From: Sporosarcina sp. Te-1 | Lineage (GTDB): Bacteria > Bacillota > Bacilli > Bacillales_A > Planococcaceae | Length of the DNA stretch: 64,000 nucleotides | Assembly (NCBI RefSeq): GCF_017498505.1 | Contig: NZ_CP071798.1 | Coordinates: 3,335,501-3,399,500, forward strand | Reading direction: 5' to 3' | Part shown: piece after piece, positions 827 to 25,708 of the stretch | How the letters are laid out: each line of letters begins with the position of its first letter | Numbering within the stretch: the stretch's first letter is position 1 | Made by a program: the position numbers and the translations under genes | The notes under the pieces: model-generated | The model's database searches: none | Told to the model about the DNA's origin: nothing | Seen by the model: only the letters and a program-made list of their open reading frames with translations

Positions 827-877
827 TACATAAAAAATAATCCGACAATTATTTTATTTTAGAGGGATGTGAGAAGT

Positions 878-2879: not shown

Positions 2880-2886
2880 ATAATTG

Positions 2887-2930: not shown

Positions 2931-3037
2931 TTTTGTTATATACCAAAATTTGGTTAAGGTGGTGGTTTGAAATTAGGCAATCTATCTCTATTTTTGGTTT
3001 TGTCATTCATGTAAGTTGATAAAAGGGGGAATTTATA

Positions 3038-4330: not shown

Positions 4331-4360
4331 GTACAATAAACTGAGAAGGAAGTGCTTAGA

Positions 4361-4702
4361 TTGAGCGAAGAAAAGAAACGATTCATACAGGAATTTGTAC
4401 CGGGAAAACAGCTTACGCTTAGCCATCTAATCGCTAATCCTGATCCAGATATGTTTCAGAAGCTGGGTATCCAAGAGGCCGGGGCGCTGGGCATCATGAC
4501 GTGCACGCCGAGTGAGACGGTCATTATTGCAGGAGATTTAGCGACCAAGGCGGCCAATGTGAAGCTAGGATTTTTGGATCGATTCACAGGAAGTCTTGTT
4601 ATTGTCGGAAGTGTTTCGGAAGTCGAGATGGCGATGCTGGAAATCAACCGATTCCTGTCTGAAAAACTCGGCTATACACCGGCATCCATTACGAAATCGT
4701 AA
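4361..4702 (+). CDS. eutS: Microcompartment shell protein EutS
   Basis: Circularly permuted BMC-domain shell protein. Residues IQEFVPGKQLTLSHLIANP at the start and the later GIMTCTPSETVIIAGDLA match EutS. Such proteins form bent hexamers in the facet or edge of the compartment. I chose TTG 4361 because GAAGGAAG lies about 8-11 bp upstream and the protein then begins MSEEKKRFIQ, near the usual N-terminus; a GTG at 4352 overlaps the ribosome site. 113 aa. Confidence 0.93.
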   Translation: MSEEKKRFIQEFVPGKQLTLSHLIANPDPDMFQKLGIQEAGALGIMTCTPSETVIIAGDLATKAANVKLGFLDRFTGSLVIVGSVSEVEMAMLEINRFLSEKLGYTPASITKS

Positions 4703-4715
4703 GGAGTGAACGGTC

Positions 4716-5228
4716 ATGCAAAACAAGGCAATGCTAATCGGGGCCATTGGTGCGGGGAAATCGACGCTGACGAATGCACTGTTAGGCAAGCAGGTTCCAG
4801 CTGTAAAAACACAGACGCTCATTTATTATGATTGGATCGTCGATACACCTGGAGAGTACACGGAAAATCCGTTGTTCTACAAAAATATTATGGCGACAGC
4901 CTTAGAAGTGTCTCATGTGTTTTACCTTCAAGATGCAACGAACGGCAAGACGATCTTTCCGCCGGGATTTAGCATGGGGGTCCCGAAACTTGCGGTCGGT
5001 GTCATTACGAAATGCGATCATCCGGAAGCTGATGTGGAAAGAGCGTACCGCATGATGAAGAATATCATTTCGGAAGGTCCTGTCATCATCACCTCATCTG
5101 TAACAGGAGACGGTGTAGGGCATTTGAAGGAATTGGTGAAGTGCCCTGACATGCAATCGATGAAAGAGTACATCCAGAAGACGGATGATGACCATGTCCG
5201 CTTCATCGGCCCACTTTACAGTGCCTAG
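4716..5228 (+). CDS. eutP: EutP, P-loop NTPase of ethanolamine utilisation
   Basis: Small P-loop protein with Walker A GAIGAGKSTL (about 9-18), DTPGEY (Walker B/G3) and TKCDHPEAD (G4-like NKxD variant). EutP/PduV proteins associate with the shell, and some EutP proteins have been described as acetate kinases. It lies 13 bp after eutS and is followed by a conditional terminator, so it closes the first eut transcription segment. Its exact role is not established by the sequence. Confidence 0.9.
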   Translation: MQNKAMLIGAIGAGKSTLTNALLGKQVPAVKTQTLIYYDWIVDTPGEYTENPLFYKNIMATALEVSHVFYLQDATNGKTIFPPGFSMGVPKLAVGVITKCDHPEADVERAYRMMKNIISEGPVIITSSVTGDGVGHLKELVKCPDMQSMKEYIQKTDDDHVRFIGPLYSA

Positions 5229-5269
5229 CAAGTTTGATATAGTTGGAGATAATACAAGTTCATGAAATC

Positions 5270-5326
5270 GGCAATGACGCCTTTACAACCCGAGGAGAAA
5301 TCTCCGGGTTTGTAGAGGCGTTTTTT
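5270..5326 (+). promoter_or_regulatory. EutV (ANTAR) site and long terminator, eutA leader
   Basis: A small hairpin GGC-AATGAC-GCC (5270-5281) shows the A1/G4 hexaloop seen upstream of eutH. It overlaps the 5' arm of a 16-bp terminator stem (5277-5292 with 5304-5320, one bulge) followed by TTTTTT. Binding of EutV would therefore block termination ahead of eutABCLEM. The EutV-hairpin stem is only 3 bp, so the call rests on the loop and the overlap. Confidence 0.6.
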
Positions 5327-5355
5327 ATTTCATTTTACCGAAATGGGGTGCGGAC

Positions 5356-6804
5356 GTGGACCAGTTCAATAAAAGGCATGAAACGATCATCAGTGCTGGC
5401 ATTGACATTGGCACAAGCACGACCAAATTGATCATCAGCCGATTTTCCTTGATGAATGTCGCGGGTACGACACATGTACCGCGAATTGAGATTGTGGATA
5501 AAGAAATTTTATATAAAAGTCCTGTCTTCCGAACGCCGCTCTTGGATGCATCGACAATCGACACGCAAGGAGTGGAACGGATCGTCCGCTCACAATATGC
5601 AGAGGCAGGAGTTACGCCCTCTCAAATTGAAACGGGGGCCGTTATCATCACAGGGGAAACGGCTACGAAACACAATGCGAGTGAAATGATCCATCATTTG
5701 TCGCATGAAGCCGGTGATTTCCTTGTTGCCACAGCAGGCCCGGATTTGGAAGGCATCATAGCGGCGAAAGGATCGGGGGCTTATGACTTTTCCGCGAAGA
5801 GCGGAAAAGTTATTGCCAACATTGATATTGGCGGCGGGACAGCCAATATGGCCGTTTACAAGGATAAGAAGCTTCTTGGTACATGCACGATGCATATTGG
5901 GGGGCGACTCATCGAGTTTCAAAATGGCCGAGTCTATTCCATCTCCTCGCCTGTCGAACGGCTGCTGGCCGAACAAGGCTGGCGCTTGCAAGTCGGAGAC
6001 CCAGCGGATAGCCCTGCTGTCCATCAAGTGACAGAATTCATGGCGGACTCGCTTGCACGGATTGTAAGCCGTGATGTTACTTTGGCAGACCATGTATTAT
6101 TGCTGGGACATACGCCTTCTTGGCAGGACGATGTAGATGCGATCGTCTTTTCGGGCGGAGTATCAGAATGTATGTATCAGCATGAGCTTGGACAGGTGCA
6201 GGTCGCTGAATATGATGATATCGGCGTCCGCTTAGCAGAAGCATTGAAGCACAATAACCGGCTGCAATCCTTTGAGTGGCTGGAGCCGGTAGAAACCGTT
6301 AGGGCGACCGTATTAGGTGCGGGCACGCAGACGACGGAAATCAGCGGTGCGACGATTCAGGTGGCACCGCATGAACTACCTCTGAAAAACATTCCGATTT
6401 ACCAGCATGATTTCATGTTTGATTTGCAAAAAGGATTGGATCTTTTTGACTCAGCCATTTCCGAAGCGATCGCCCTATATGATTCGACCCGGGAAGGGCA
6501 AAATTTTGCATTATATATATCGAATCTCCCCTATATGGGATTCCGGGACATCCAAACCTTGTCCCAGGCGATTATCCGCCTGATGGAAAAGCGGCCAGAC
6601 CCGGCGCAGCCGATCATTTTGATCATCCAATCGGATCACGCCAAGGTAATTGGCCAGACGCTGGTCGCCATGAATGTACAACAAAGTGTCATTTGTGTGG
6701 ATCAAATCAACGTAGAGACCGGCGATTACATTGATATCGGCAAGGCGCTCGATTCCGGTGTCGTGCCGGTTGTAGTGAAAACGTTAACATTCCACACATC
6801 GTAA
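5356..6804 (+). CDS. eutA: Ethanolamine ammonia-lyase reactivase EutA
   Basis: Chaperone-like ATPase that swaps damaged cobalamin out of inactivated EutBC. The actin/Hsp70-fold phosphate loops are visible: AGIDIGTSTTKLIISRF near the N-terminus and NIDIGGGTANMAVYK at about 155-170. Length (482 aa) is normal. Start GTG 5356 follows a GGGGTGCGG ribosome site. It lies 14 bp before eutB, so it is translated with the lyase it serves. Confidence 0.93.
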   Translation: MDQFNKRHETIISAGIDIGTSTTKLIISRFSLMNVAGTTHVPRIEIVDKEILYKSPVFRTPLLDASTIDTQGVERIVRSQYAEAGVTPSQIETGAVIITGETATKHNASEMIHHLSHEAGDFLVATAGPDLEGIIAAKGSGAYDFSAKSGKVIANIDIGGGTANMAVYKDKKLLGTCTMHIGGRLIEFQNGRVYSISSPVERLLAEQGWRLQVGDPADSPAVHQVTEFMADSLARIVSRDVTLADHVLLLGHTPSWQDDVDAIVFSGGVSECMYQHELGQVQVAEYDDIGVRLAEALKHNNRLQSFEWLEPVETVRATVLGAGTQTTEISGATIQVAPHELPLKNIPIYQHDFMFDLQKGLDLFDSAISEAIALYDSTREGQNFALYISNLPYMGFRDIQTLSQAIIRLMEKRPDPAQPIILIIQSDHAKVIGQTLVAMNVQQSVICVDQINVETGDYIDIGKALDSGVVPVVVKTLTFHTS

Positions 6805-6818
6805 AGGAGGCGCTGCAA

Positions 6819-8183
6819 TTGAATTTATCAACAGTATTAGGCGGCGAACGGTATGTGTTCACCGATTTGAAAGAAGTATTGGCCAAAGCGAATGAGGAAA
6901 AATCGGGCGACCGATTAGCCGGCATTGCAGCAGAGACGGTCCAAGAACGGATCGCAGCCAAAGCGGTCGTTAGCGAATTGCTGGTGAGCGATATTCGCAA
7001 CAATCCACTTATTCCCGTTGAAACAGATGAAGTGTCCCGAATCATTGAGGGTGATATCAACGAAAAAGTATATAGCGAAATTAAAAACTGGAGCATTGCA
7101 GAGCTGCGCGAATACATTCTGAGCAATGATGTAGGCGACCGTGAATTAAAACGGCTCAGCCGAGGATTGACTTCTGAAGTCATTGCGGCTGTGACGAAGC
7201 TTATGTCTAACCTTGATCTCGTCCATGCGGCGAATAAAATTGAGATTTTGTCTACATGCAATATTACGATCGGTCAAAAAGGGACGCTTTCCTCCCGTTT
7301 GCAGCCGAACCATCCGACAGACAATATAGATGGCATCATCGCTTCTCTGAAGGAAGGTTTATCATTTGGAATCGGTGATGCGGTCATCGGTATCAATCCG
7401 GTCGATGATTCCGTTGAAAGCGTCAAACGCATTTTGCATGCGACGAAAGATTTTATTAACGAGTGGGAAATCCCGACACAAAACTGTGTCCTTGCCCATG
7501 TGACAACACAAATGAAAGCAATCCAGCAAGGAGCTCCTGCCGATATGATTTTCCAAAGTATCGCAGGAACGGAAAAAGCACATCGATCCTTCGGTATTTC
7601 AGCGGAGTTGATTGAGGAAGCCCGGGATCTTGCGTTGAAACAAGGGACGGGTACAGGTCCTCAAGTGATGTACTTCGAAACGGGCCAAGGGTCTGAACTG
7701 TCAGCGGAGGCGCATTACGGTATTGACCAGCTTACATTGGAATCCAGAAACTATGGTTTCGCCAGACATTATGATCCATACATCGTCAACACGGTTGTTG
7801 GATTTATCGGGCCGGAATATTTGTATAACAGCAAACAGGTCATCCGGGCAGGGCTTGAAGACCATTTTATGGGCAAATTGCACGGCATTCCGATGGGCGT
7901 CGATATTTGTTATACGAACCATATCAAGGCCGACCAAAACGATATTGAGGACTTGAGTGTGCTGTTATCGGCTGCCGGTGTGAACTTCATTATCGCGGCA
8001 CCGATGGGCGATGATGTCATGCTGAATTATCAATCGATGAGTTATCACGATGTCGCGACACTTCTTCAGACGCTTGGAAAGACTCCAGCACCTGAGTACT
8101 TGAAATGGCTTGAAAAGATGGGCATTTATGAAAATGGCAAGCTGAGCGCACGTGCGGGCGATGCCACGTTGTTTAACCGATAG
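6819..8183 (+). CDS. eutB: Ethanolamine ammonia-lyase large subunit EutB
   Basis: Catalytic TIM-barrel subunit of the AdoCbl-dependent lyase that converts ethanolamine to acetaldehyde and ammonia. It is 454 aa, the usual length, with family segments SSRLQPNHPTDNIDGI, GLSFGIGDAVIGINPVDDS and FMGKLHGIPMGVDICYTNH. TTG start with AAAGGAGG 7-8 bp upstream. It lies 14 bp from eutC; together they form the lumenal enzyme of the compartment. Confidence 0.97.
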   Translation: MNLSTVLGGERYVFTDLKEVLAKANEEKSGDRLAGIAAETVQERIAAKAVVSELLVSDIRNNPLIPVETDEVSRIIEGDINEKVYSEIKNWSIAELREYILSNDVGDRELKRLSRGLTSEVIAAVTKLMSNLDLVHAANKIEILSTCNITIGQKGTLSSRLQPNHPTDNIDGIIASLKEGLSFGIGDAVIGINPVDDSVESVKRILHATKDFINEWEIPTQNCVLAHVTTQMKAIQQGAPADMIFQSIAGTEKAHRSFGISAELIEEARDLALKQGTGTGPQVMYFETGQGSELSAEAHYGIDQLTLESRNYGFARHYDPYIVNTVVGFIGPEYLYNSKQVIRAGLEDHFMGKLHGIPMGVDICYTNHIKADQNDIEDLSVLLSAAGVNFIIAAPMGDDVMLNYQSMSYHDVATLLQTLGKTPAPEYLKWLEKMGIYENGKLSARAGDATLFNR

Positions 8184-8197
8184 GAGGTGGATTTGGG

Positions 8198-9190
8198 TTG
8201 AATGAACAGCTGATTGAACAAATAACCAAAATGGTCGTAGAAAAACTTCAGGAAACGAAGGGGTTGTCTGAAACCCGGAAGTCGGATGAAACAATGCCGG
8301 TCAATCTCTTTGCAATAACACCTGTTGGCCGGGCAGTCACAGTGGAAAATCCAGAAACGGGACCAGCCGGAGCGGTGACCTTCCACCGTACTGCGGAACA
8401 GAAACAGCCTGCTGCTACTCCTTCCAAAATTACAGCCACTGAGGCGTGTAAGAAGCAGGACACAAAGAAGCAGTCGGATGGCAAGGAAACAGAATTGGCT
8501 GAGCTTCGCAAGAAAACGCCGGCTCGTGTGGGTGTCGGCAGAGCCGGTTCGCGTCCGAAAACAAAAACATGGCTTCAATTCCGGTTGGACCATGCGGCAG
8601 CCGTCGATGCGGTATACGGTGAAGTGCCGGATGAATTACTGAGCCGGCTCGATCTGTTCCAAGTCCATTCTAAAGTGGCGGATAAGGAAGAATATATTCG
8701 GCGTCCTGATTTGGGCAGAAGGTTATCGGATGAATCGAAACAGACAGTAATGGAGAAATGCAAGAAGGGGCCGACGGTTCAAATCGTCGCATCCAATGGA
8801 TTAAGTGCAAAAGCGATAGAAGAGAACTTGGAGGATGTCTATTTATCTCTCGAACAGTCCCTCCGCAACTTGAACATCGACATGGGAACGACCTTCTACG
8901 TTGATAAAGGAAGGGTCGCCTTGATGGACGAAATCGGCGAAATGTTGCAGCCTGATGTCGTCGTCATGTTAATCGGCGAACGCCCTGGTCTCGTGTCAGC
9001 GGAGTCGTTGAGCGCCTATCTTTGTTATCAACCGCGCATCGGCACGATCGAAGCGGATCGGATGGTCATTTCCAACATCCATAAGGGGGGCATCCCGCCG
9101 GTGGAAGCTGGAGCATACTTAGGTACGGTCATCCAAAAAGTGCTGAAATACGAGGCGAGCGGTGTATCCCTTGTGAATAAAGAAGGCTAG
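8198..9190 (+). CDS. eutC: Ethanolamine ammonia-lyase small subunit EutC
   Basis: Small subunit contributing to the cobalamin site. The C-terminal core (from RVGVGRAGSRPKTKTWLQF, about 108-325) is typical, including GERPGLVSAESLSAYL. At 330 aa it is longer than the usual about 295 because residues 25-105 are a Lys/Ala/Thr-rich linker. The extreme N-terminus, LIEQITKMVVEKLQE, is an amphipathic helix like known encapsulation peptides and should target the enzyme into the shell. TTG start after TAGGAGGTGG. Confidence 0.95.
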   Translation: MNEQLIEQITKMVVEKLQETKGLSETRKSDETMPVNLFAITPVGRAVTVENPETGPAGAVTFHRTAEQKQPAATPSKITATEACKKQDTKKQSDGKETELAELRKKTPARVGVGRAGSRPKTKTWLQFRLDHAAAVDAVYGEVPDELLSRLDLFQVHSKVADKEEYIRRPDLGRRLSDESKQTVMEKCKKGPTVQIVASNGLSAKAIEENLEDVYLSLEQSLRNLNIDMGTTFYVDKGRVALMDEIGEMLQPDVVVMLIGERPGLVSAESLSAYLCYQPRIGTIEADRMVISNIHKGGIPPVEAGAYLGTVIQKVLKYEASGVSLVNKEG

Positions 9191-9204
9191 GAGGCGGCAA
9201 TCCG

Positions 9205-9849
9205 ATGAAAATCCATGCTGACATATTGTCTATGCAAGTCATTCCGAATGTGAATGAAGAGCTTGCAAAGAAATTCAATCTGAAGCCGTATCAACGAAGC
9301 ATCGGGCTTGTGACAACGACTATTGATGATGTCGGCTATACCGCGATTGACGAGGCAACGAAAAAGACCGATGTAGAAGTTGTGTATGCGAAAAGCTTCT
9401 ATGCCGGAGCTGCACATGCATCAGGCCCCTTATCGGGTGAATTCCTCGGGGTCATCGCGGGCCCCTCTCCAGAAGAAGTGAAGAGCGGTTTGGATTCGAT
9501 ACGGATCACGATTGAAAATGACGCTTATTTTGAAGCGATCAATGGCAATCCGGATCATGCGCTTTATGCACATACCGTTTCGAGAACTGGCAGCTTTTTA
9601 GCGGAAATGGCGGGAATCCCGGTTGGACAGTCATTAGCCTATTTAATTGCCCCGCCGCTCGAAGCGATTGTCGGGTTGGATGCGGCCTTGAAGGCGGCGG
9701 ATGTAACATTATGCGAGTTTTTTGCTCCCCCATCGGAAACGAACTTTGGCGGCGGTCTGCTGACCGGCAGCCAATCATCCTGCCAAGCGGCGACGGATGC
9801 GTTTCGGGAAGCAATTCAAAATATGGCGCGAAACCCACTAGGGTATTGA
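9205..9849 (+). CDS. eutL: Trimeric shell protein EutL
   Basis: Tandem-BMC-domain shell protein (214 aa) that forms a trimer with a gated pore. The start MKIHADILSMQVIPNVNEEL and the internal SGPLSGEFLGVIAGPSPEEV match EutL. It has two BMC folds (about 1-105 and 106-214), ending with the conserved SQSSCQAATDAFREA segment. ATG after AGGAGGCGG, 14 bp from eutC. Confidence 0.95.
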   Translation: MKIHADILSMQVIPNVNEELAKKFNLKPYQRSIGLVTTTIDDVGYTAIDEATKKTDVEVVYAKSFYAGAAHASGPLSGEFLGVIAGPSPEEVKSGLDSIRITIENDAYFEAINGNPDHALYAHTVSRTGSFLAEMAGIPVGQSLAYLIAPPLEAIVGLDAALKAADVTLCEFFAPPSETNFGGGLLTGSQSSCQAATDAFREAIQNMARNPLGY

Positions 9850-9882
9850 TTGCCAATAGTAAGCGAGGAAGGAGTGATTGAC

Positions 9883-11391
9883 TTGGTGCAGGCACTAGAC
9901 GCTGATTTATTGGCCCTCCAAGAAATGCGTACAGCTGTTAAAACAGCAAAAGAAGCGCAACTAAAATTCATGAGCTACACGCAACAACAAGTGGACGACA
10001 TTGTCAAAGCTGTTGCAGAAGTCGCCTTCAAGGAATCCGAACGTCTTGCCTATATGGCGGTGGAAGAAACAGGTATGGGTGTTGCAGTTCACAAGAAAAT
10101 CAAAAATGAAGTGGGCTCCCGTGATGTATACGAAAGTATTAAAGATATGAAAACTGTCGGCATCATCGGAGAAGACAAAGTGAAGAAAGTCGTGGAAATC
10201 GCGGCTCCGTTCGGTGTGGTAGCGGGCATTATCCCGACGACCAATCCAACGTCCACTGCGTTCTTCAAGACACTCATTTCATTGAAAACAAGAAATGCGA
10301 TTGTTGTCAGCCCCCATCCATATGCGGTAAATTGCACGCATGAAGCATTGAAAGTGTGCGATGCGGCCGCAGTGAAAGCGGGTGCACCGGAAGGGTTGAT
10401 TCAATGCTTGACGATGTCTTCCATGGAAGCAACGCAGCAATTGATGAAACATCCGGACGTCAATCTCATCCTGGCAACAGGCGGAGGCGCACTCGTAAAA
10501 GCTGCGTATAGCTCGGGCAAGCCAGCCTATGGCGTCGGACCGGGGAACGTTCCGGTATACATCGAGCGCTCTGCGAAAGTGGAAAAAGCGGTCCGGGATA
10601 TTGTCAACAGCAAGTCGTTCGACTACGGTACGATTTGTGCGACAGAACAAGCGATCGTCGTCGATAAAAACATTTTGGAGCTCGTCAATCGGGAATTGAA
10701 GAAAAACGGTGCTTACATTTTGTCGGATGAAGAGAAGCGAATCATGGAGAAAGTCGTCTCCCCTTCACCGGGCAAAGTAAACCCGAAAATTGTCGGCAGA
10801 AGCCCGCAAACGATTGCAAAACTCGCTGGCATCTCCATCCCGGAAGGCACTCGCGTTATCATCGGAATGGAAACGAAAGTTGGCAAAGATGTTCCGTTCT
10901 CACTTGAGAAGCTGTCTCCAGTCTTTGCAATGTACGTAGCCGATGATGTCAACCATGCGAAGGAAATTTGCATGTCGCTGCTCGATATAGGCGGTCGGGG
11001 TCATAGCCTCTCGATCCATACCGAGAATGATTCCATTGCCCGCGAATTCGCAGTGGAAATGCCGGTTTCCCGTATCATGGTCAATACAATGTCTTCCGTC
11101 GGCGCTGTCGGGGGAACAACCGGACTTATGCCATCCTTCACATTAGGCTGCGGTACATTCGGCGGCAATATTACATCCGATAATGTGACAGCAAAACACC
11201 TGCTGAACATTAAACGGATGGCGTATGGCACCAAAGAGGTTACACTCCCTTCCCATCAGGAAGTGGAAAAGAATTCAACAACCGATCAGGTCGTTTCAGA
11301 GGTCATGACGAAAGTCGGATCTGATGGCGACATTGATCCAGAAGTAGTGAAAAACTTAGTCAGCGAGATTGTCAAGCAGTTGACGAAGTGA
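9883..11391 (+). CDS. eutE: CoA-acylating acetaldehyde dehydrogenase EutE
   Basis: Oxidises acetaldehyde to acetyl-CoA with NAD+ in the compartment lumen. Catalytic Cys about 252 is in DYGTICATEQ; IIPTTNPTSTAFFK and the glycine-rich YGVGPGNVPVY are also present. The C-terminus, after a Gly/Asp linker, ends in an amphipathic helix VVKNLVSEIVKQLTK that resembles an encapsulation peptide. The frame opens at TTG 9850, but GAGGAAGGAG at 9865-9874 points to TTG 9883 (or GTG 9886), giving 502 aa. Confidence 0.93.
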   Translation: MVQALDADLLALQEMRTAVKTAKEAQLKFMSYTQQQVDDIVKAVAEVAFKESERLAYMAVEETGMGVAVHKKIKNEVGSRDVYESIKDMKTVGIIGEDKVKKVVEIAAPFGVVAGIIPTTNPTSTAFFKTLISLKTRNAIVVSPHPYAVNCTHEALKVCDAAAVKAGAPEGLIQCLTMSSMEATQQLMKHPDVNLILATGGGALVKAAYSSGKPAYGVGPGNVPVYIERSAKVEKAVRDIVNSKSFDYGTICATEQAIVVDKNILELVNRELKKNGAYILSDEEKRIMEKVVSPSPGKVNPKIVGRSPQTIAKLAGISIPEGTRVIIGMETKVGKDVPFSLEKLSPVFAMYVADDVNHAKEICMSLLDIGGRGHSLSIHTENDSIAREFAVEMPVSRIMVNTMSSVGAVGGTTGLMPSFTLGCGTFGGNITSDNVTAKHLLNIKRMAYGTKEVTLPSHQEVEKNSTTDQVVSEVMTKVGSDGDIDPEVVKNLVSEIVKQLTK

Positions 11392-11438
11392 TGGAAGTAA
11401 AGACAAATCAAAATAAAACCCATTAGGAGGAAACAAAC

Positions 11439-11726
11439 ATGAACAGAGAAGGTACAGCATTAGGAATGGTAGAAACGAAAGGTTTGATCGGTTCAATCGA
11501 AGCAGCGGACGCAATGGTGAAAGCGGCTAGCGTTAATCTTGTTGGTAAAGTACACGTCGGCGGCGGAATCGTTACAGTACTCGTACGCGGTGATGTAGGC
11601 GCAGTAAAAGCGGCAACTGATGCAGGTGCAGCAGCTGCACAACGTGTAGGCGAATTGCTATCTGTCCACGTCATTCCAAGACCGCATAACGAATTGGAAA
11701 TGATCCTGCCTAAAATGGAAGGCTAA
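11439..11726 (+). CDS. eutM: Hexameric shell protein EutM
   Basis: Canonical 95-aa BMC-domain protein: [20 protein letters not shown] at the start, then [22 protein letters not shown]. It forms the major hexagonal tiles of the shell. A strong TAGGAGGAAA site precedes the ATG, which fits a highly expressed shell component. A second, longer BMC protein lies at 12909-13253. Confidence 0.97.
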
Positions 11727-11764
11727 TTCGTTAGCGAAAATGACAGTAGAAAGGTGGAAGTGGA

Positions 11765-12616
11765 ATGGATCAGCAATTGATTGAACGGATTGTCGGGGAA
11801 GTACTCGGCCAACTTTCAAAAGACGGGAGCCAATTGCCGGCACAAGCTGTTCCGATTGCCGTTTCTGCCCGCCACGTACATCTGAAAATCGAACATGTGG
11901 AAGCGCTGTTTGGAAAGGGTTATGAATTGACGAAGCGGTCCGACTTATCACAGCCGGGCCAATTCGCCTCAAACGAAACAGTGGTTGTCGCAGGACCAAA
12001 AGGCAGCATCGAGCGGGTGCGTATTCTGGGTCCTGCGCGTTCCCTTTCCCAAGTGGAAGTCAGCTTTACAGACGCCATGAAGTTAGGTGTAAAGCCACCG
12101 CTTCGAGAGTCTGGCGATATAGAAGGGTCCGCAGGCATCACGCTTATCGGCCCGAAAGGCAGCATTTACTTGGAAGAGGGCCTGATCGTCGCCCAAGCGC
12201 ATATTCATATGGCGCCAGGCGATGCTTCACGGTTCGGCGTGCAAAATGGCGAGTATGTAACAGTTGAGGTGGATGGTATTCGTCCCATATCATTCCGGAA
12301 TGTGAAAATCCGGGTATCCGATCGTTATCGGTTGGAAATGCATATCGACACGGATGAAGCGAATGCAGGATTCATTTCACAAGGAACGATTGGACGACTT
12401 GAGAAGCCAGGAACAGCAAAGACAGAATTGCATGTCCCTCAGAGCGCTCCTGAGCCTGTAAACAAATCGTATGAATTTAAGAAAAAGCTGCTTTCCAATG
12501 AAGATATCCGTTCTATTCAGGAACAGGACATTCTCGTCGAAAAAGGGACGATTGTGACAGCGCTTGCGAAAGATACAGCGAGGGAACTCGGTAAGACGAT
12601 TTCCTTCAGAAAGTAG
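11765..12616 (+). CDS. pduL: PduL-type phosphotransacylase with extra C-terminal module
   Basis: Converts acetyl-CoA to acetyl phosphate and regenerates CoA in the lumen. It replaces the unrelated EutD seen in enterobacteria. The N-terminus MDQQLIERIVGEVLGQLSK is an encapsulation helix. The two beta-barrel halves carry the zinc motifs SARHVHL and AQAHIHM. Family members usually end near 210 aa; this one is 283 aa. The extra tail (about 225-283: LLSNEDIRSIQEQDIL, KGTIVTALAKDTARELG) resembles the N-terminal module of EutQ and EutT (LITxxDI...IITPxARExA). Neither eutQ nor eutT is present in this locus. Confidence 0.9.
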   Translation: MDQQLIERIVGEVLGQLSKDGSQLPAQAVPIAVSARHVHLKIEHVEALFGKGYELTKRSDLSQPGQFASNETVVVAGPKGSIERVRILGPARSLSQVEVSFTDAMKLGVKPPLRESGDIEGSAGITLIGPKGSIYLEEGLIVAQAHIHMAPGDASRFGVQNGEYVTVEVDGIRPISFRNVKIRVSDRYRLEMHIDTDEANAGFISQGTIGRLEKPGTAKTELHVPQSAPEPVNKSYEFKKKLLSNEDIRSIQEQDILVEKGTIVTALAKDTARELGKTISFRK

Positions 12617-12631
12617 AAAAGGTGATTACGC

Positions 12632-12934
12632 ATGCGAATGGGAAAAGTGATCGGTAACGTATGGGCAACACGCAAGGAAGAGGGCTTGCAAGGGTTGAAA
12701 TTGCTGATTATCCAGCCGATTGATGCATACGGAGACGCCATCCAGACGCAAATGGTGGCAGCAGACCGGATTGGTGCAGGCATTGGCGATGAGGTCCTGA
12801 TTACGAGCGGCGGCTCCTCACGTTATATTATGAAAGACAATCCGATTCCTATCGATGCGGTAGTCATAGGAATCATTGATTCTACAGAAGTGAAGAGAGG
12901 CGAAATCGATGAGTCAAGCAATCGGAATGATTGA
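12632..12934 (+). CDS. eutN: Pentameric vertex protein EutN
   Basis: CcmL/EutN-family protein of 100 aa that caps the vertices of the polyhedral shell. [20 protein letters not shown] and the later [20 protein letters not shown] are diagnostic. It begins 16 bp after pduL, and its end overlaps the next BMC gene by 26 bp. Confidence 0.95.
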
Positions 12935-13253
12935 AACAAAAGGGTTGATCGGTTCCATTGAAGCGGCGGATGCCATGATTAAAGCATCCAATGTGTCCCT
13001 AGTGAAGCAAGAGATGGTCGATGGCGGGATAGTAACTGTCATCGTGCAAGGAGATGTCGGTGCAGTTCAGGCAGCCGTGGAGGCAGGCCGGGATGCTGCA
13101 GCCCGTGTCGGTGAACTATTGGGATCACATGTCATCCCACGTCCGGATGAATCGGTCTATGGCATGGTAAAGCCTGCTCCTGCGGTCGAACCACAGGCTG
13201 CCAAACAGGAAAAGCTAGGCGAACCTGCAAAACCGAAATCGGCTAAAAAATAA
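12909..13253 (+). CDS. BMC-domain shell protein with Lys-rich tail
   Basis: The first about 88 residues are a BMC hexamer domain close to EutM ([20 protein letters not shown]). The last about 26 residues are Pro/Ala/Lys rich and end KPKSAKK. The tail could contact lumenal enzymes or nucleic acid, as proposed for the C-terminal domain of EutK, although no folded domain is visible. Paralogue of EutM in the same operon. It overlaps eutN, so translation is probably coupled. Confidence 0.88.
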
Positions 13254-13255
13254 TA

Positions 13256-13321
13256 AGGTGCATGGCACCTGCAAGCAAGGGACTTTGATCCGTCGAATCT
13301 GGCGTATCATGAAAGTCCTTT
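13256..13321 (+). promoter_or_regulatory. Two stem-loops in the mdh leader
   Basis: A perfect hairpin AGGTGC-ATG-GCACCT (13256-13270) is followed by a long stem pairing AAGGGACTTT (from 13277) with GAAAGTCCTTT (to 13321). There is no clear U-run, so it could be an RNA-processing or stability element, or a weak attenuator between the shell genes and mdh. The role is inference. Confidence 0.35.
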
Positions 13322-13352
13322 CCTTAGGCATTGATAAAGGAGATGAGCGAGG

Positions 13353-14294
13353 TTGGCATTTCGTAGACATAAGATTGCGGTCATCGGAGCGGGTCATACC
13401 GGAGCCACTGTTGCTCTCATGGCAGCGCAAAAGGAATTGGGCGATGTTGTATTAGTGGACATCCCCGACTTGGTGAACCCGACAAAAGGGAAAGCGCTCG
13501 ATTTATTGCAAACGAGCCCTGTCCAGCGATTTGACTCTATGATTATCGGCACATCGGATTATGCCGATATTCAAGATGCCGATATGGTCATCGTGACCGC
13601 TGGCATTGCCCGCAAGCCGGGCATGAGCCGAGATGATCTCGTAACAACAAATGCGAAAATCATGCGATCTGTTTCCGAGCAGATCAAACAATATGCTCCT
13701 GAGAGCACCGTCCTTATTTTAAGTAATCCGGTCGATGCCATGACATATGTCTGCTACAAGACGACTGGTTTTCCGAAAAATCGTGTGATCGGCCAGTCCG
13801 GCGTGCTGGACACCGCCCGATTTAATACATTTGTCGCGGAAGAACTCAACATTTCCGTTGAGGATGTGTCCGGGTTTGTACTCGGCGGGCATGGCGATGA
13901 TATGGTGCCGCTCGTGCGTTATTCGAATGCGGGCGGAATTCCGCTTGAAAAAATCATTCCGGCGGATCGTCTGCAGGCCATTGTCGAACGGACAAGAAAA
14001 GGCGGCGGAGAAATTGTGGCTCTTCTCGGTAACGGAAGCGCCTACTATGCACCGGCAGCGGCACTCGTCCAAATGGCAGAAGCGATCATTAAAGATAAAA
14101 AGCGTATTTTGCCATCCATTGCTTATTTGGAAGGCGAATATGGCTACCAGGATATTTATCTAGGTGTTCCGACTGTAATTGGCGGCAACGGAATCGAAAG
14201 CATCATTGAACTTCCCTTGACGGATGATGAGCAACGGGCACTGGATAAGTCTGCGCAGTCTGTTCAGGTTGTGTTGGATATTTGCAATCGGTAA
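13353..14294 (+). CDS. mdh: Malate dehydrogenase
   Basis: LDH/MDH-family oxidoreductase of 313 aa, very like the Bacillus TCA-cycle enzyme. It has the NAD motif [10 protein letters not shown], the active-site loop [11 protein letters not shown] with the MDH-specific Arg87 and Arg93 that bind oxaloacetate, and the catalytic His in [14 protein letters not shown] start after AAAGGAGATGA. It is the last gene before the terminator at 14417. No encapsulation peptide is visible, so it is probably cytosolic. Its place at the end of a eut operon is unusual; the common context is citZ-icd-mdh. Confidence 0.93.
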
Positions 14295-16634: not shown

Positions 16635-16660
16635 GACTCGAAAAATTGAATAGCAGACAT

Positions 16661-16862
16661 TGAACGATGAAATGGTACCGTAACGGTTTAAAAGGGAATC
16701 CGGAAATCCGGAGCTGTCCCCGCAACTGTAAGCGCAGACGATCACCGATAAGCCACTATAGGCAACTATGGGAAGGCAGGTGGGAGGAGGAAGCGCAAGC
16801 CAGGAGACCTGCCATCCATCGTCAAAGCGACACTTTCTTCGGGGGTTGAGAGGTGGAAGCGA
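16661..16862 (+). ncRNA. Cobalamin (AdoCbl) riboswitch 1
   Basis: The conserved core is clear: GGGAATCCGG...GGAGCTGTCCCCGCAACTGTAAGCG, then GCCACT (about 16752) and the B12 box AGCCAGGAGACCTGCC (16798-16813), followed by the kissing-loop region. It is nearly the same as the element at 21701 in front of nrdE. With the downstream terminator at 16923 it should switch off the next gene when adenosylcobalamin is abundant. Confidence 0.95.
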
Positions 16863-16922
16863 AACGGATCCCGGTCCAACGGGCTTTTTAGGGTTCCAAT
16901 TTGTTTCCCAATGATCAATTAC

Positions 16923-16963
16923 GAGCAATCGCTCTGCCGAAGTGGCAGGCGGTTGCTCTTTTC
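16923..16963 (+). terminator. Riboswitch-controlled terminator 1
   Basis: GAGCAATCGCTCTGCC pairs across a GAAG loop with GGCAGGCGGTTGCTC and is followed by TTTTC. Arm length and the GAAG loop match the corresponding hairpin before nrdE (21968-22006), consistent with duplication of the whole control unit. Confidence 0.85.
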
Positions 16964-16981
16964 ATTGAAAGGAGACGGAAG

Positions 16982-17815
16982 ATGAGAGCGATTCAACAGG
17001 AGTATGGCATTGGCGCTGAATTAAATGAGAAGTTTCCGGAACAACAGCTGACATGGGGAGAAGTCCGATATACTGAACGAGACATCGATAGATTGAAAAG
17101 GGAACTGGCAGATCGGTTTTACGCAGCTCCATCGACTTCCGGTGAGGATGACATGCTGTTTCTTGCAATGAAAGCGATGCAGCATGAACGGATGAATCGG
17201 ATTGAAAAAGTAGTGGATACGTATTGGGCATTATCAAACGGTTATATCTCGCTTTCCAAGGAATTGGCGAATGTGCTGTGGGGAGTCACCCCCCGTCTGG
17301 AGAAGGGGCGAAATATCATCAGCGTCGCAGATCAACAAACGACACGGCTCATGCAAGAAGGAACTCCTTTCACGGCTAGCCTGCCAGACCTCTTTTGGAA
17401 GCAAGTGATGGAGTGCGGCTCGTGGCAAACATTAGAAACTTCTAACGGGCTCGCAGACATAAGAGAAATTTCCGCAATCGGCCTGATGAAAGAACTATTG
17501 CGGCAACAGATGCAGAGCGGCCAACCATCCTTCTTCTTTGAAGATCAATTGAACCCGGCACATCCGAGAAAAATTCTGCCGTTTGGTTCCACTTTGCATG
17601 TAGAGCGGATACGGCAGAGAGGTAGGATCGATCAGGTTATCGCTATTCAAGTAAGGCTCGTCAATTCGATTTTGAGCCATTTGGATGCTGAAAAGGCGTG
17701 GATTGCACCGATTTATTTTCAATTGCCGGCAGCCTTCAAGGTAATTGACTTATATAATTTGCAGATGCAGGCATGGAAGAATGGAGCACGTTTGACCGTT
17801 TGCCTGCCCAATTAA
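16982..17815 (+). CDS. Mini-RNR: shrunken ribonucleotide-reductase large-subunit homologue
   Basis: 277-aa protein of unknown function, collinear with fragments of NrdE at 22045. Mini 56-98 (NRIEKVVDTYWALSNGY) matches NrdE 162-206 (NRLGKIAEAYWAMSNLY); 130-148 (FTASLPDLFWKQV) matches 325-344; 164-196 (IGLMKELLRQQMQSGQP) matches 392-425; about 216-231 (AIQVRLVNSI) matches 489-500; 245-275 (LQMQAWKNGARLT) matches 692-725. Counterparts of NrdE Cys216, Asn434/Cys436/Glu438, Cys470, Tyr723-Tyr724 and the C-terminal CEWC are all missing, so it cannot be a reductase. The frame is intact, ATG 16982 has AAAGGAGA 7 bp upstream, and it has its own AdoCbl riboswitch. A regulatory partner or decoy for NrdE/NrdF, or a decaying duplicate, are both possible. 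Confidence 0.8.
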   Translation: MRAIQQEYGIGAELNEKFPEQQLTWGEVRYTERDIDRLKRELADRFYAAPSTSGEDDMLFLAMKAMQHERMNRIEKVVDTYWALSNGYISLSKELANVLWGVTPRLEKGRNIISVADQQTTRLMQEGTPFTASLPDLFWKQVMECGSWQTLETSNGLADIREISAIGLMKELLRQQMQSGQPSFFFEDQLNPAHPRKILPFGSTLHVERIRQRGRIDQVIAIQVRLVNSILSHLDAEKAWIAPIYFQLPAAFKVIDLYNLQMQAWKNGARLTVCLPN

Positions 17816-19545: not shown

Positions 19546-19770
19546 AAAAGCCCCCGTCTCAATCAATGAGACGGAAGCTTGTTCCGCGGTACCACTCAAA
19601 TTGCCCGTTCGTCGGGCCACCTTTCTCCTAACGGCGAGACACCGGCCTTTCCTACTTCTTTCAGAAAAGCATCTATGAAGTGCGTTTCATGTACCCTCTT
19701 CGCCAGGCTTCCACCATCCCCGGCTCGCTATGGAAGTTGAGGAGCATTACTCTCTTCGTCAACGATATTG
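19546..19770 (-). ncRNA. T-box riboswitch of argS (Arg, specifier CGC)
   Basis: On the minus strand the leader contains the AGAGAGTA motif, the GGGATGGTGG loop of stem I, a specifier loop with CGC (forward 19682-19684) matching arginine, the T-box core TGGTACCGCGG (forward 19584-19594) and a terminator (GTCTCATTGATTGAGAC, then TTTTT). Uncharged tRNA-Arg should bind and permit read-through into argS. Confidence 0.93.
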
Positions 19771-19776
19771 TATACC

Positions 19777-20177: not shown

Positions 20178-20266
20178 CTGAGCACCACCGAAAGTTGCCA
20201 CCTTATCTGGGACCGTTTCTCCAAGTGCTGCTTGGGTATGCTATGGAAAGGAGAGGAGAGAGGTTC

Positions 20267-21543: not shown

Positions 21544-21700
21544 CAGCGGATCACATGAAAAACATCAACTAAGTCAAACAGAAGATCAAGCAAATTTCAA
21601 AGAAAATTTTCCGAAAATAATTCACATTCTTTTTACCTATTTACGATTAAACCACAACATGTTAGGGTAGTAGATGTACATAAAGCACAACATATAGTAT

Positions 21701-21905
21701 TTGAACGATGGAATGGTACCGTATTCGGTATAATAGGGAATCCATAAAATTGGAGCTGTCCCCGCAACTGTACACGCTGACGACTTGCTTATATCCACTG
21801 TGGCAAATGCCATGGGAAGGGAGCAGGGAGGAGGAAGCGCAAGCCAGTAGACCTGCCGTCCATCGTGAAGCGACACTTTCTTCGGGGGTTGAGAGGTGGG
21901 AGCGA
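21701..21905 (+). ncRNA. Cobalamin (AdoCbl) riboswitch 2, upstream of nrdE
   Basis: Same architecture as riboswitch 1: GGGAATCC...GGAGCTGTCCCCGCAACTGTACACG, a CCACTG core segment, the B12 box AGCCAGTAGACCTGCC (21842-21857) and the shared CGACACTTTCTTCGGGGGTTGAG region. Control of class I RNR genes by a B12 riboswitch is known in other bacteria that also carry B12-dependent class II RNR. Confidence 0.95.
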
Positions 21906-22044: not shown

Positions 22045-24267
22045 ATGACGATAATTCAAGAAAACAAAAAGGTAAATGACATTCTGGTGCAATTGAGAGA
22101 GGAATTCGGCGCTGGCCATATTGCAGTTTTGGAAGCAGCGAGCCAAAAGTGGCTGGAACGCCATCCTGATGGAAGCAAGGAGAACTGGACGAAGGCGATG
22201 ATTTTGGAGGCGCTCAGCTATATTGACGAAGCCTCCACCCATTGGACATTTGTCGCGTCTCGTATTTACCTGGACTCTGTTTATGAACAGCAGCGCGTTA
22301 TCCGTGGAACAGAGGTATATGCGGATTTTGCTGGTCATGTGGAGCGGCTCGTCCGTCAAGGATTGTACACGCCAGAACTGCTAGATAGCTATTCAACAGA
22401 AGAGCTGACAACCATTGGGACATTCATCGAGCCCGAGCGGGACAAGCTCCTTACATATATCGGACTGAAGACGTTGATGGATCGCTATGCGGCTGTTGAT
22501 TTTAATAAAAAACCAGTGGAGCTGCCACAGGAACGCTGGCTCGTCATCGCGATGACGCTCATGCAAAAGGAGACGGACAATCGTCTCGGTAAAATTGCAG
22601 AAGCATATTGGGCAATGAGCAATCTATATATGACCGTCGCCACACCGACGCTTGCGAATGCGGGCAAGCCGCATGGTCAATTGTCCAGCTGCTTCATCGA
22701 CACGGTGGATGACTCGCTGCAGGGAATCTACGACAGCAATACCGATATCGCGAATCTCTCAAAATACGGTGGCGGCATCGGTGTATATATGGGCAAAGTA
22801 CGTTCGCGCGGTTCTTCCATCAGGGGATTCAAAGGGGCATCGAGCGGCGTCCTTCCGTGGATTAAACAACTGAACAATACGGCTGTGAGCGTCGATCAGC
22901 TCGGCCAGCGCCAAGGCGCCATTGCTGTCTACCTTGATGTGTGGCATAAGGATATATTCACGTTTCTAGATTTGAAGCTGAACAACGGGGATGAGCGGTT
23001 GCGTGCGCATGATATTTTCACAGGTGTCTGCCTGCCGGATATATTCATGGAGCAGGTTGAAGCACGGGCCGACTGGCATTTATTTGACCCACATGAAGTT
23101 CGGACGGTGATGGGCTACTCCCTGGAGGATTTTTATGATGAGACTAAAGGTTCCGGATCGTTCCGTGAAAAGTACGAGGAATGTGCAAACCATCCACAAT
23201 TAACGAAAGAGACAGTACCTGCCATCGAAGTGATGAAGCGCATTATGCGCAGCCAGCTTGAAACGGGTACACCGTTCATGTTCTACCGGGATGAAGTGAA
23301 CCGGATGAACCCGAATAAGCATGAGGGCATGGTGTATTCGAGTAATCTCTGTTCGGAAATTATGCAAAATCAGAGTGCGACGCAATTCGAATCGGTCACA
23401 CTTGAAGATGATATCGTCGTCACACGATCCAAGCCGGGCGATTTTGTCGTCTGTAACTTATCTTCCATCAATTTGGGACGAGCAGTGCCAGCAGGTGTAT
23501 TGGAACGGCTCCTTACCATTCAAGTGCGCATGCTTGATAACGTCATTGATTTGAATAAAATACCGGTCGTCCAAGCGCAACGGACAAATTCCCGCTACCG
23601 AGGCATCGGGCTTGGAACGTTTGGCTGGCATCATTTATTGGCACTAAAAGGAATCCAATGGGAGTCGGAAGAAGCAGTTCATTACGCGGATGAACTCTAT
23701 GAACAAATCGCCTTTTTGACAATCAAGTCCTCAATGGAGCTGGCGAAAGAAAAAGGGGCATACCCGTTATTTGATGGTTCTGATTGGCAGACAGGTGCTT
23801 ATTTTGAGCATCGTAGCTATGATTCCAAAGCATGGAAGGAACTTCGTTTTGACGTTCAGGCGAACGGCATCCGCAACGGCTATCTTATGGCGGTGGCACC
23901 AAACAGTTCGACATCGGTCATTGCTGGTTCTACGGCATCCATTGATCCGGTTTTCAAGCCTTTCTATCATGAGGAGAAGAAGGATTACAAACTGCCGGTA
24001 GTTGCGCCGGATCTGGACCATAACACATATAATGTGTACCGCAGATCTGCCTATATCGTTGACCAGCGCTGGTCGATCAAACAGAATGCAGCGCGTCAGA
24101 AGCATGTCGACCAATCGATTTCATTTAATATATACGTACCAAATAATATTCGGGCGTCCGTCTTGCTTGAACTACACCTGCAAGCATGGAAATCCGGCAT
24201 GAAGACGACGTACTATACACGTTCCACCGCATCGGACATCGAGGAGTGCGAATGGTGTCATTCCTGA
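22045..24267 (+). CDS. nrdE: Class Ib ribonucleotide reductase, large subunit
   Basis: Catalytic alpha subunit of 740 aa that reduces ribonucleotides to deoxyribonucleotides. All key residues are present: Cys216 (SSCFIDT) and Cys470 (VVCNLSS) as the redox pair, Asn434-Cys436-Glu438 (NLCSEI) at the active site, the PNSSTS loop (619-624), the radical-transfer pair Tyr723-Tyr724, and the C-terminal CEWC. ATG 22045 is chosen over 22021 because AAAGGAG (22030-22036) lies 8 bp before it. Its stop overlaps nrdI. Controlled by riboswitch 2. Confidence 0.95.
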   Translation: MTIIQENKKVNDILVQLREEFGAGHIAVLEAASQKWLERHPDGSKENWTKAMILEALSYIDEASTHWTFVASRIYLDSVYEQQRVIRGTEVYADFAGHVERLVRQGLYTPELLDSYSTEELTTIGTFIEPERDKLLTYIGLKTLMDRYAAVDFNKKPVELPQERWLVIAMTLMQKETDNRLGKIAEAYWAMSNLYMTVATPTLANAGKPHGQLSSCFIDTVDDSLQGIYDSNTDIANLSKYGGGIGVYMGKVRSRGSSIRGFKGASSGVLPWIKQLNNTAVSVDQLGQRQGAIAVYLDVWHKDIFTFLDLKLNNGDERLRAHDIFTGVCLPDIFMEQVEARADWHLFDPHEVRTVMGYSLEDFYDETKGSGSFREKYEECANHPQLTKETVPAIEVMKRIMRSQLETGTPFMFYRDEVNRMNPNKHEGMVYSSNLCSEIMQNQSATQFESVTLEDDIVVTRSKPGDFVVCNLSSINLGRAVPAGVLERLLTIQVRMLDNVIDLNKIPVVQAQRTNSRYRGIGLGTFGWHHLLALKGIQWESEEAVHYADELYEQIAFLTIKSSMELAKEKGAYPLFDGSDWQTGAYFEHRSYDSKAWKELRFDVQANGIRNGYLMAVAPNSSTSVIAGSTASIDPVFKPFYHEEKKDYKLPVVAPDLDHNTYNVYRRSAYIVDQRWSIKQNAARQKHVDQSISFNIYVPNNIRASVLLELHLQAWKSGMKTTYYTRSTASDIEECEWCHS

Positions 24268-24701
24268 TTGCCTATGCATCCTGGAGCGGTAATACCGAGG
24301 AAGTGGCGGAATTGATACGGGGTGCGCTAGGCAGGGAAGGAATTGAAACGACAATGTACCGGATCGGTTTTGGTCCGGTTCCCGACCCGAGGAAGTATGA
24401 GGCGATGGTAATCGGATCTTTCACATGGGATAAAGGCGCAACGCCTGATGAAGTGAAGGATTTCGTGGCAACAATCGGCTACAAACCGAAGCCTGTCTAC
24501 GTCTTCGGAACGGGGGACACACAATTTGGCGGGGACGATTTGTTTTGTCATGCAGCCGTCAAGCTCGCGCGTTTCTATGCATCGGGCTGTCCGCCTCTTA
24601 AAATTGAGCAAAGTCCGCGCGGCATTCAAGAAATGAAAGTCATTGAATGGACGAAAGGAGTCTATCAACATTGGTTACACTTACACGAGTTAAAGTGCTG
24701 A
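24252..24701 (+). CDS. nrdI: Flavodoxin-like NrdI
   Basis: Flavodoxin-fold protein of 149 aa. It has the FMN phosphate loop YASWSGNTEEVAEL (about 9-22) and the flavin loops GSFTWDKGATPDEV and GTGDTQFGGDDLF. In class Ib systems it supplies the oxidant that builds the dimanganese-tyrosyl radical of NrdF. ATG 24252 follows GAGGAGTG and overlaps the end of nrdE by 16 bp; the frame opening at 24186 lies inside nrdE. It also overlaps nrdF, so all three are translationally coupled. Confidence 0.88.
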   Translation: MVSFLIAYASWSGNTEEVAELIRGALGREGIETTMYRIGFGPVPDPRKYEAMVIGSFTWDKGATPDEVKDFVATIGYKPKPVYVFGTGDTQFGGDDLFCHAAVKLARFYASGCPPLKIEQSPRGIQEMKVIEWTKGVYQHWLHLHELKC

Positions 24702-25708
24702 ATCCGGCAAATCCGAACAAAGCGACAGCAATTTTCGGCGGAAAGGCGAGTGGCATCCTGAATTGGAATGATCTCGCACACCCCCATTTCTATACACTTC
24801 GACAACGAATTCGCTCGTTATTCTGGACGGCAAACGAAGTCGATATGACGCAAGACGTCAAGCAGTTCCCAAACTTGTCCAAGACGGAGCAGGATGCCTT
24901 CCTGAAAATTATCGGCCTGCTTGCGACGCTTGACGGTCCGCAGACGGTCATCGCAATGAAAATCGCCGATTTCACGACAGATCCTGCGGTGAAATCCATT
25001 ATGGCTACGATTGCGGATCAGGAAAGTGAACATAATCACAGCTATGCCTATGTACTTTCTTCTGTGACGACGCTTGACAAGCAGAACGCCTCATTTGAAA
25101 TGGGACGCACGGATGAAGTACTCATGAAGCGGAACGAACGGATTGTCGAGATATACAATGAATTCGCTGAAAACCCGACAATTGAGACCGTGCTGAAAGC
25201 GATGGTCTACACGACGCTGCTCGAAGGCCTGTTCTTCTACAGCGGCTTCGCGTTCTTCTACAATTTGGCGCGCCATCAGAAAATGGTCGGCACCTCAACA
25301 ATGATTTCCTATATTAACCGTGATGAGCTCCAGCACGGCAAGGCAATCAGCGACATCTTCCGTGCGGCCCTGGCGGAAAATCCGGAATACAACACTGAGG
25401 CGTTTACGGAGTGGATCTATGACCAATTCCGCCACTCCGTTGAACAGGAAATCATCTGGAGCCGCTATGTTCTCGGGGAAATCGACGGCATTGACCTTGA
25501 AGAAATGGCTGGCTACGTCAAATATCGGGCCAACAAAATGCTCCGCATGCTCGGCCTAAGCGAAATCTACCCTGAGTTCACGGAAAATCCGATGAAGTGG
25601 ATACGTGCTTACGTTGACAATTTTGACGACACGAAAACGGACTTCTTCGAGCAGACATCCCGACAATACGTAAAAACGAGTGATTTGAACGGGTTTGATG
25701 ATTTGTAA
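24671..25708 (+). CDS. nrdF: Class Ib ribonucleotide reductase, small subunit
   Basis: Radical-carrying beta subunit, about 345 aa. Metal ligands and the radical site are visible: Asp in VDMTQDVKQF, Glu and His in ADQESEHNHSYAYV with the radical Tyr after Ser, Glu in TLLEGLFFYSGFAFF, and Glu/His in NRDELQHGKAI. I chose TTG 24671, 10 bp after AAAGGAG; ATG 24647 is inside nrdI and has no ribosome site. Partner of NrdE and NrdI in the same riboswitch-controlled transcript. Confidence 0.93.
   Translation: MVTLTRVKVLNPANPNKATAIFGGKASGILNWNDLAHPHFYTLRQRIRSLFWTANEVDMTQDVKQFPNLSKTEQDAFLKIIGLLATLDGPQTVIAMKIADFTTDPAVKSIMATIADQESEHNHSYAYVLSSVTTLDKQNASFEMGRTDEVLMKRNERIVEIYNEFAENPTIETVLKAMVYTTLLEGLFFYSGFAFFYNLARHQKMVGTSTMISYINRDELQHGKAISDIFRAALAENPEYNTEAFTEWIYDQFRHSVEQEIIWSRYVLGEIDGIDLEEMAGYVKYRANKMLRMLGLSEIYPEFTENPMKWIRAYVDNFDDTKTDFFEQTSRQYVKTSDLNGFDDL

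Follow-up and report, generated by a model that had tools for sequence, protein, structure and literature searches.

Why should a cell make a dead RNR subunit in response to the vitamin that also controls the live one, and why is such a gene found only next to its ethanolamine genes? These questions are posed by a short gene of Sporosarcina sp. Te-1, here called the mini, which lies about 4 kb upstream of nrdE. In Streptomyces, B12 riboswitches are known to control class I RNR genes. The window, i.e., the whole stretch of 64,000 nucleotides that was analysed, holds the following features.

869..2879, + strand: eutW/eutV-like pair, a PdtaS-type histidine kinase (869-2341) and an ANTAR response regulator (2310-2879).
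3038..14294, + strand: eut operon (eutH, BMC protein, eutA, eutB, PTAC and others) with a lactate/malate dehydrogenase gene.
16655..16830, + strand: cobalamin (AdoCbl) riboswitch aptamer of the mini gene (RF00174, 116.4 bits, E 1.6e-28).
16831..16981, + strand: expression platform and leader, with a terminator hairpin (16923-16958) and T run, and AAAGGAG at 16968-16974.
16982..17815, + strand: the mini, a 277-aa catalytically dead NrdE paralogue (mini pseudo-R1), on ORF, family-model, alignment and dN/dS evidence.
21696..21874, + strand: cobalamin riboswitch of nrdE, the probable source of the mini riboswitch (RF00174, 103.6 bits).
22045..24267, + strand: intact class I RNR large subunit NrdE, 740 aa.
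24186..24701, + strand: RNR-associated flavodoxin ORF, 171 aa from the upstream-most start (TIGR01754 150 bits against a cut-off of 163.8; PRK09271 over its cut-off).
24647..25708, + strand: class I RNR small subunit NrdF, the proposed partner (PF00268, E 7e-72; tail QYVKTSDLNGFDDL).

The argS gene is convergent to the mini gene, with about 40 bp between them, and has a T-box leader upstream (19564-19771, - strand). An erythromycin-esterase-like gene (20150-21514) lies between argS and the nrdE riboswitch, and a similar ORF is present at the same place in three relatives (L033-L035).

The mini is read from an ATG start through 277 codons in an unbroken frame; the range first marked out from the sequence, 16661-17815, takes in the riboswitch as well. 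Its best NCBIfam model is PRK09209, the NrdE-type model (33.4 bits, E 1.5e-8), which is likewise the best model for the window NrdE. The scores stay below the cut-offs of PRK09209 (1057 bits), TIGR02506 (17.1 vs 341 bits) and Pfam PF02867 (19.5 vs 23.9 bits). With the mini as query, phmmer retrieved the window NrdE at E 1e-12 among the ORFs supplied, and when the whole genome was searched up to E 10, the only other matches were two stretches of the same NrdE. The sequence-only reading had paired separated segments of the two proteins (YWALSNGY with YWAMSNLY, MKELLRQQMQSGQP with MKRIMRSQLETGTP, LQMQAWKNG with LHLQAWKSG), and all of these pairs are present in the alignment. Common descent from an R1 is found by family model, phmmer, alignment and tree; judged by sequence comparison, the homology to NrdE exceeds chance.

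The residues on which catalysis depends have not survived. The active-site residues C216, N434, C436, E438 and C470 (NrdE numbering) are absent or replaced in every family member. The radical-transfer pair Y723/Y724 has become V/C in the minis and other non-tyrosine residues in the longer members, while the tail cysteines C735/C738 are missing or replaced throughout. The loss of catalytic cysteines, radical tyrosines and the C-terminal cysteine pair, noticed earlier in the mini, was borne out at 9/9 catalytic, radical-transfer or tail positions checked, and in all members. The claim that the protein is not an enzyme is supported by the loss of these positions; as selection has preserved it in related species, a regulatory function is probable, and an enzyme or a relic is not.

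Relatives were sought with the mini itself in 68 Sporosarcina genomes, and with a profile of minis and smalls in 261 genomes of the bacterial family at E 1e-40. It had been suggested that homologues of this size should be looked for behind B12 riboswitches, and they are indeed present in three other Sporosarcina genomes (87, 68 and 67% identity), with longer and more distant members in 17. Altogether, 21 of the 68 Sporosarcina genomes carry a member at E 1e-40: four minis (271-279 aa), 14 smalls (406-471 aa) and three mids (614-618 aa). The frame is intact in 20/21 members and in 13/14 smalls; in the exception, G032, the ORF that begins at the leader ATG ends after 66 aa, and homology is picked up again in another frame. 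No member was found in the 193 other genomes of the bacterial family at E 1e-40, a threshold and a sample with which more distant members would be missed. Within the genus, the next best profile matches score about 120 bits and lie in NrdE-size frames. A class-level sample of 398 genomes gave five matches, all Sporosarcina, and a collection of named genomes gave 11 loci, all Sporosarcina (including S. luteola, S. cyprini, S. cascadiensis, S. obsidiansis, S. aquimarina and a S. ureae MAG).

Outside Sporosarcina, G201 (genus g14) has two dead-R1 profile matches at E 1e-12 or better. In four genomes of genus g8 (G098, G115, G118, G119), N-terminal NrdE-like matches occur in open frames of 434-499 aa only, which are perhaps interrupted or truncated nrdE genes. 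A phage or defence origin of the mini was rejected: a scan of viral contigs found no relative of it, a PADLOC defence scan of two proteins gave none, and in a PHROGs scan of two proteins RNR models alone matched.

All members share the same gaps. NrdE stretches 315-325 and 427-451 are missing in 21/21 members and stretch 212-286 in all of them save four aligned residues, and the same stretches are missing in a separate alignment of 15/21 members. They hold the redox cysteine C216 and the finger loop (N434, C436, E438) and, by sequence position, should also hold the dimer helices and the specificity loops. In a maximum-likelihood tree of 16 of the 21 members and 11 NrdE proteins, the 16 members are separated from the NrdE proteins by a single branch (support 96/96, recovered in 97% of bootstrap trees). 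The minis sit on a long branch in that tree, with 37-38% of columns filled, and the shared deletions are therefore the better evidence for a single origin.

The switch points to the same source as the gene. The mini and nrdE riboswitches are 80% identical, while the next best among the other five of the genome reaches 64%; gene and switch were thus most likely copied together from nrdE. The aptamer was confirmed by Rfam in 16/16 loci examined (the window and 15 others, of 21), and the leader motif, from the end of the riboswitch to the ribosome site, is recognisable together with that site in 21/21 members. The mini terminator is a 36-nt hairpin from 16923, followed by a T run, and the AAAGGAG ribosome site ends 7 nt 5' of the ATG. 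The intact frame with ribosome site, AdoCbl riboswitch and terminator, as described from the sequence alone, was confirmed. The terminator is the best simple hairpin before the T run in 20/21 members; in G028, another hairpin scored higher. Its placement suggests the usual OFF switch, in which the mRNA is predicted to be terminated by AdoCbl, so that the mini protein would be made along with NrdEF when B12 is short.

It is probable, then, that a single duplication, next to the eut operon, copied both nrdE and its B12 riboswitch. In the shared ancestor, the copy would have lost the common stretches, and with them the finger loop and one redox cysteine as well as, judged by position, the dimer helices and the specificity loops. 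Shrinkage may then have gone in steps (about 618, 471, 424/406 and 277 aa): from a mid-like form, the smalls would have been cut further, to 471 aa and later to 424 and 406 aa, and the minis furthest of all.

The reading frame is under purifying selection as a protein. Among the minis, dN/dS is 0.17-0.22 by NG86 and 0.23-0.30 by YN00 in 6/6 pairs; this was a check proposed at the outset, and the value is not near 1. The mids give 0.14-0.16 in 3/3 pairs, and the smalls 0.09-0.18 in the eight pairs with dS 0-2, out of 28 pairs of eight sequences from which saturated or failed pairs were left out. For comparison, NrdE gives 0.02-0.03 and NrdF 0.006-0.017. Differences between members are concentrated at third codon positions. 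When as many nucleotide differences as observed were placed at random, a stop was gained in 294, 292 and 300 of 300 copies for three mini pairs, in 300/300 for one mid and one small pair, and in 261/300 for the close small pair G066/G065. In every simulation, the amino-acid changes outnumbered the observed ones. The earlier suggestion of a duplicate that carries its own B12 switch and is preserved, not decaying, is supported by the riboswitch likeness, the relatives and dN/dS together.

What has been kept of the R1 fold was considered through predicted structures, in which both folding alignments held NrdE rows, so that the models are biased toward R1 matches. The mini prediction has a mean pLDDT of 77 and a pTM of 0.74, with residues 1-53 unreliable. 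The Foldseek matches listed against the PDB (the best 50) are all R1 chains, at E 4e-6 to 8e-5. None of these 50 gives a global superposition, the TM score being about 0.3, and the mini is therefore modelled as a remodelled remnant and not as a small R1. The 471-aa member (pLDDT 83, pTM 0.81) is predicted to keep the R1 scaffold, with TM 0.66-0.78 to its best 50 chains.

According to parts of a study of yeast Rnr1, the helices alphaI, alphaD and alpha13 line the cleft that takes the tail of the small subunit, and the R2 tails of yeast and E. coli bind differently (PMC3483043). In an excerpt on B. subtilis, the NrdF tail is placed in a hydrophobic cleft of NrdE (PMC6572854), and in another source, as excerpted, alphaA and alphaB are named as dimer helices (PMC9669993). 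The blocks retained across the family include the equivalents of alpha13, alphaD and alphaI; alphaH is lost in the minis, and with it half of subsite 2. At subsite 1 of the R2-tail cleft, 9/9 positions have an aligned residue in the mini when mapped via the PDB alignment, a mapping by sequence alignment that is unsure in the alphaI region. Of these, 8/9 are invariant among the four minis, against 147/262 other columns (one-sided p 0.048), while the hydrophobic class is kept at 78% of the cleft and at 77% elsewhere. Invariance at the cleft is 78% vs 76% in the mids, and 56% vs 37% in the smalls. Conservation of the aligned cleft above background is marginal, and the retained helices would permit NrdF binding, for which the cleft is a candidate site.

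The reading favoured here, tentatively and at somewhat less than an even chance, is that the mini is a pseudoenzyme which would bind the NrdF tail through the retained cleft helices and so tune class I RNR. A B12-regulated modulator that may bind NrdE or NrdF had been suggested from the sequence alone. AdoCbl binding would end the mini mRNA, and the protein would appear alongside NrdEF under B12 scarcity, at a time when the B12-dependent NrdJ cannot work. As a one-sided mimic of R1, it would take the C-terminal tail of NrdF with its equivalents of alpha13, alphaD and alphaI. It might then limit or buffer the assembly of the active NrdE-NrdF complex, or hold NrdF until NrdE becomes available. 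Holding NrdF would be the simplest RNR-related job for a protein that has kept the tail cleft but neither catalysis nor the dimer stretch. The direction of the switch, NrdF as the partner and the effect on RNR activity are what we infer. Slightly less probable still is the wider proposal of a bacterial RNR pseudoenzyme family, progressively miniaturised, whose members may now be B12-gated regulators of class I RNR acting through NrdF.

The distribution of the partner was also considered. NrdF is present in 21/21 member genomes, and its 14-residue tail is identical in 21/21. The tail is equally conserved where the gene is absent (18 of 20 genomes sampled from the 46 NrdF-bearing non-member genomes), and no co-variation of tail and gene was found among the 21 member and 20 other genomes compared; 46 of the 67 NrdF-bearing genomes do without the gene. 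Some precedent for a co-induced RNR tuner may be taken, by analogy, from Hug1, which is described as binding the small subunit and accumulating when RNR is induced (PMC4245953). Two further points count against NrdF tuning: the co-expression of an inhibitor with its target is an odd logic, and nothing that points to NrdF is as strict as the link to eut, found in 21/21 genomes.

As for the class II enzyme, NrdJ was detected at E 1e-100 in 11/21 member genomes. In the remaining 10, a looser search found a further R1-type locus in 10/10, all interrupted or broken and presumably NrdJ, so that the count of 11/21 is a threshold artefact. These split loci (G002, G003, G029, G030, G031, G032, G046, G063, G065 and G066) consist either of long frames, of up to 1266 aa, that contain inserts, perhaps inteins, or of stops and separate frames.

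The eut link is the ground for the reading that survives best beside NrdF tuning, namely that the mini is a pseudoenzyme whose role is unrelated to RNR and tied to ethanolamine use or another B12-linked process, its old R1 scaffold binding a different protein or ligand at low AdoCbl. In 15/16 mapped loci (the window and L033-L047), no more than 6 kb separates the member, which may be on either strand, from the lactate/malate dehydrogenase gene that closes the eut operon; the stretch mapped for the remaining locus, L044, begins inside a chemotaxis receptor gene. In 21/21 genomes, eutB is on the contig of the member, within about 13 kb, and this proximity holds even where nrdE is remote (in G066 on another contig, in G065 at a distance of 0.56 Mb). 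Every member genome (21/21) has eutB, a member is absent from all 43 genomes without eutB, and four eutB genomes lack one (Fisher p 7e-14, ignoring kinship and linkage). Neither this link nor the longer family members had been noticed in the sequence-only reading. A further point for an unrelated role is offered by the betaherpesvirus R1 homologues, which, in the parts of the literature cited, lost catalysis and acquired unrelated partners (PMC5469499). Against it, linkage alone can account for the co-occurrence, since a gene born beside an operon that is gained and lost as a block would yield the same table; moreover, the strong library matches of the mini are to RNR only, with none from PADLOC. 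This role outside RNR is unlikely in our judgement, and is kept because the strict eut link is left unexplained by NrdF binding.

Other observations concern the same neighbourhood. In G027, the dehydrogenase gene and nrdE are 7 kb apart and no remnant of a member was found between them, so nrdE may have been close to eut for a long time. One of the four eutB genomes without a member is G026, a single-contig Sporosarcina genome that has two eutB copies; NrdE and NrdF were not found there, and the sole R1-type locus found is NrdJ-like, in two frames. In 7/9 mapped small loci (L036-L039, L044-L046), the dead RNR gene is followed, at a distance of at most 80 bp, by a same-strand gene of 368-374 aa, which could belong to one transcript with it under the B12 switch. 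In L044 (7896-9020), the only locus scanned, it is a sugar-diacid/PucR-type regulator by Pfam.

It may also be asked whether the RNA, and not the protein, is the active product. The riboswitch transcript would then act like EutX/Rli55, sequestering a EutV-type regulator when AdoCbl is absent, with the frame as a passenger. In the parts of the report cited, AdoCbl riboswitch RNAs in eutV-type loci of Enterococcus and Listeria are described as sponging EutV (PMC5821096). The window likewise has the kinase/ANTAR-regulator pair 5' of eutH, and the mini riboswitch is, of the seven cobalamin riboswitches in the genome, the one closest to the eut operon; none lies inside the operon. What the window has in common with the EutX/Rli55 loci, as excerpted (PMC5821096), is thus that an AdoCbl riboswitch and an ANTAR regulator occur together at a eut locus. 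The difference is that the mini transcript carries a conserved, selected reading frame and is not non-coding; selection at the amino-acid level and 20/21 intact frames point to a protein. A simple scan of the window mini transcript found no dual hairpin with AxxGxx loops, and among 12 member transcripts two had one pair each, not common to relatives. The scan is crude, as stems of at least 4 gave no pair before the eut genes either, and the negative is a weak one; nothing convincing for a EutX-like sponge came of it. We regard an RNA sponge as rather improbable.

Two further hairpin types were noted. A TGGCATTGG[CT]GCTG hairpin stands early in the ORF of 4/4 minis (17005 in the window) and resembles one before eutH (2887); a second of this type lies nearby in G012 only among the minis, and the likeness to the eutH leader is probably chance. 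The terminators before eutH (2880-3037) and eutA (5229-5355) carry short AATG[GA]C-loop hairpins in their 5' arms, which are possible EutV (ANTAR) sites.

Very improbable is the idea that the dead R1 associates with NrdE in mixed dimers or oligomers and so poisons it. Descent directly from NrdE and B12 control of the same kind would suit this idea, but NrdE 212-286, which by position should contain alphaA/alphaB and loop 1, is missing almost entirely from every member, and this speaks against pairing with NrdE. Least probable of all is a slowly decaying duplicate with no function, for which the stepwise shrinkage, an evolution faster than that of NrdE, the frameshifted G032 and the absence of the gene from 47/68 Sporosarcina genomes may be cited, and which is rejected on dN/dS well below 1 in minis, smalls and mids, the third-position bias, the stop simulation, the intact frames and a leader kept in 21/21.

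The mini can thus be set beside the known systems. With NrdE (PRK09209/TIGR02506; PF02867), it shares descent in separated blocks and the same type of riboswitch, and the 471-aa member has, in its model, an R1-like scaffold. It differs in lacking the active-site cysteines, the finger loop, the radical-transfer tyrosines and the tail cysteines, by position also the specificity loops and dimer helices, and in being 277 and not 740 aa long. Unlike the mini, Hug1 is presumably not an RNR homologue. Among the yeast RNR regulators (Hug1, Dif1, Sml1), it is Hug1 that the proposed way of working of the mini would resemble; Hug1 is intrinsically disordered, and in the abstract cited its site on Rnr2 is called a new binding region (PMC4245953). 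The R1 homologues of betaherpesviruses (HCMV UL45, MCMV M45) have, according to passages of a report, lost their catalytic residues and been kept for another role (PMC5469499). The mini resembles them as a dead R1 descendant kept by selection; they are viral and act on host signalling, and the comparison is one of description alone (PMC5469499, as excerpted). No bacterial inactive R1 with a new job was found in searches of the open-access literature, subscription papers being outside this coverage.

With R1 descent, loss of catalysis and preservation by selection all found in it, the mini is an RNR pseudoenzyme: bacterial, miniaturised and B12-switched. If the proposed tuning through NrdF is true, one vitamin signal would set the amount of both a B12-independent enzyme and its built-in brake or chaperone. 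As Sporosarcina offers a graded series of sizes, from 740 through about 618, 471 and 424/406 to 277 aa, the parts of R1 that are needed for a non-catalytic function may be read there by evolutionary deletion.
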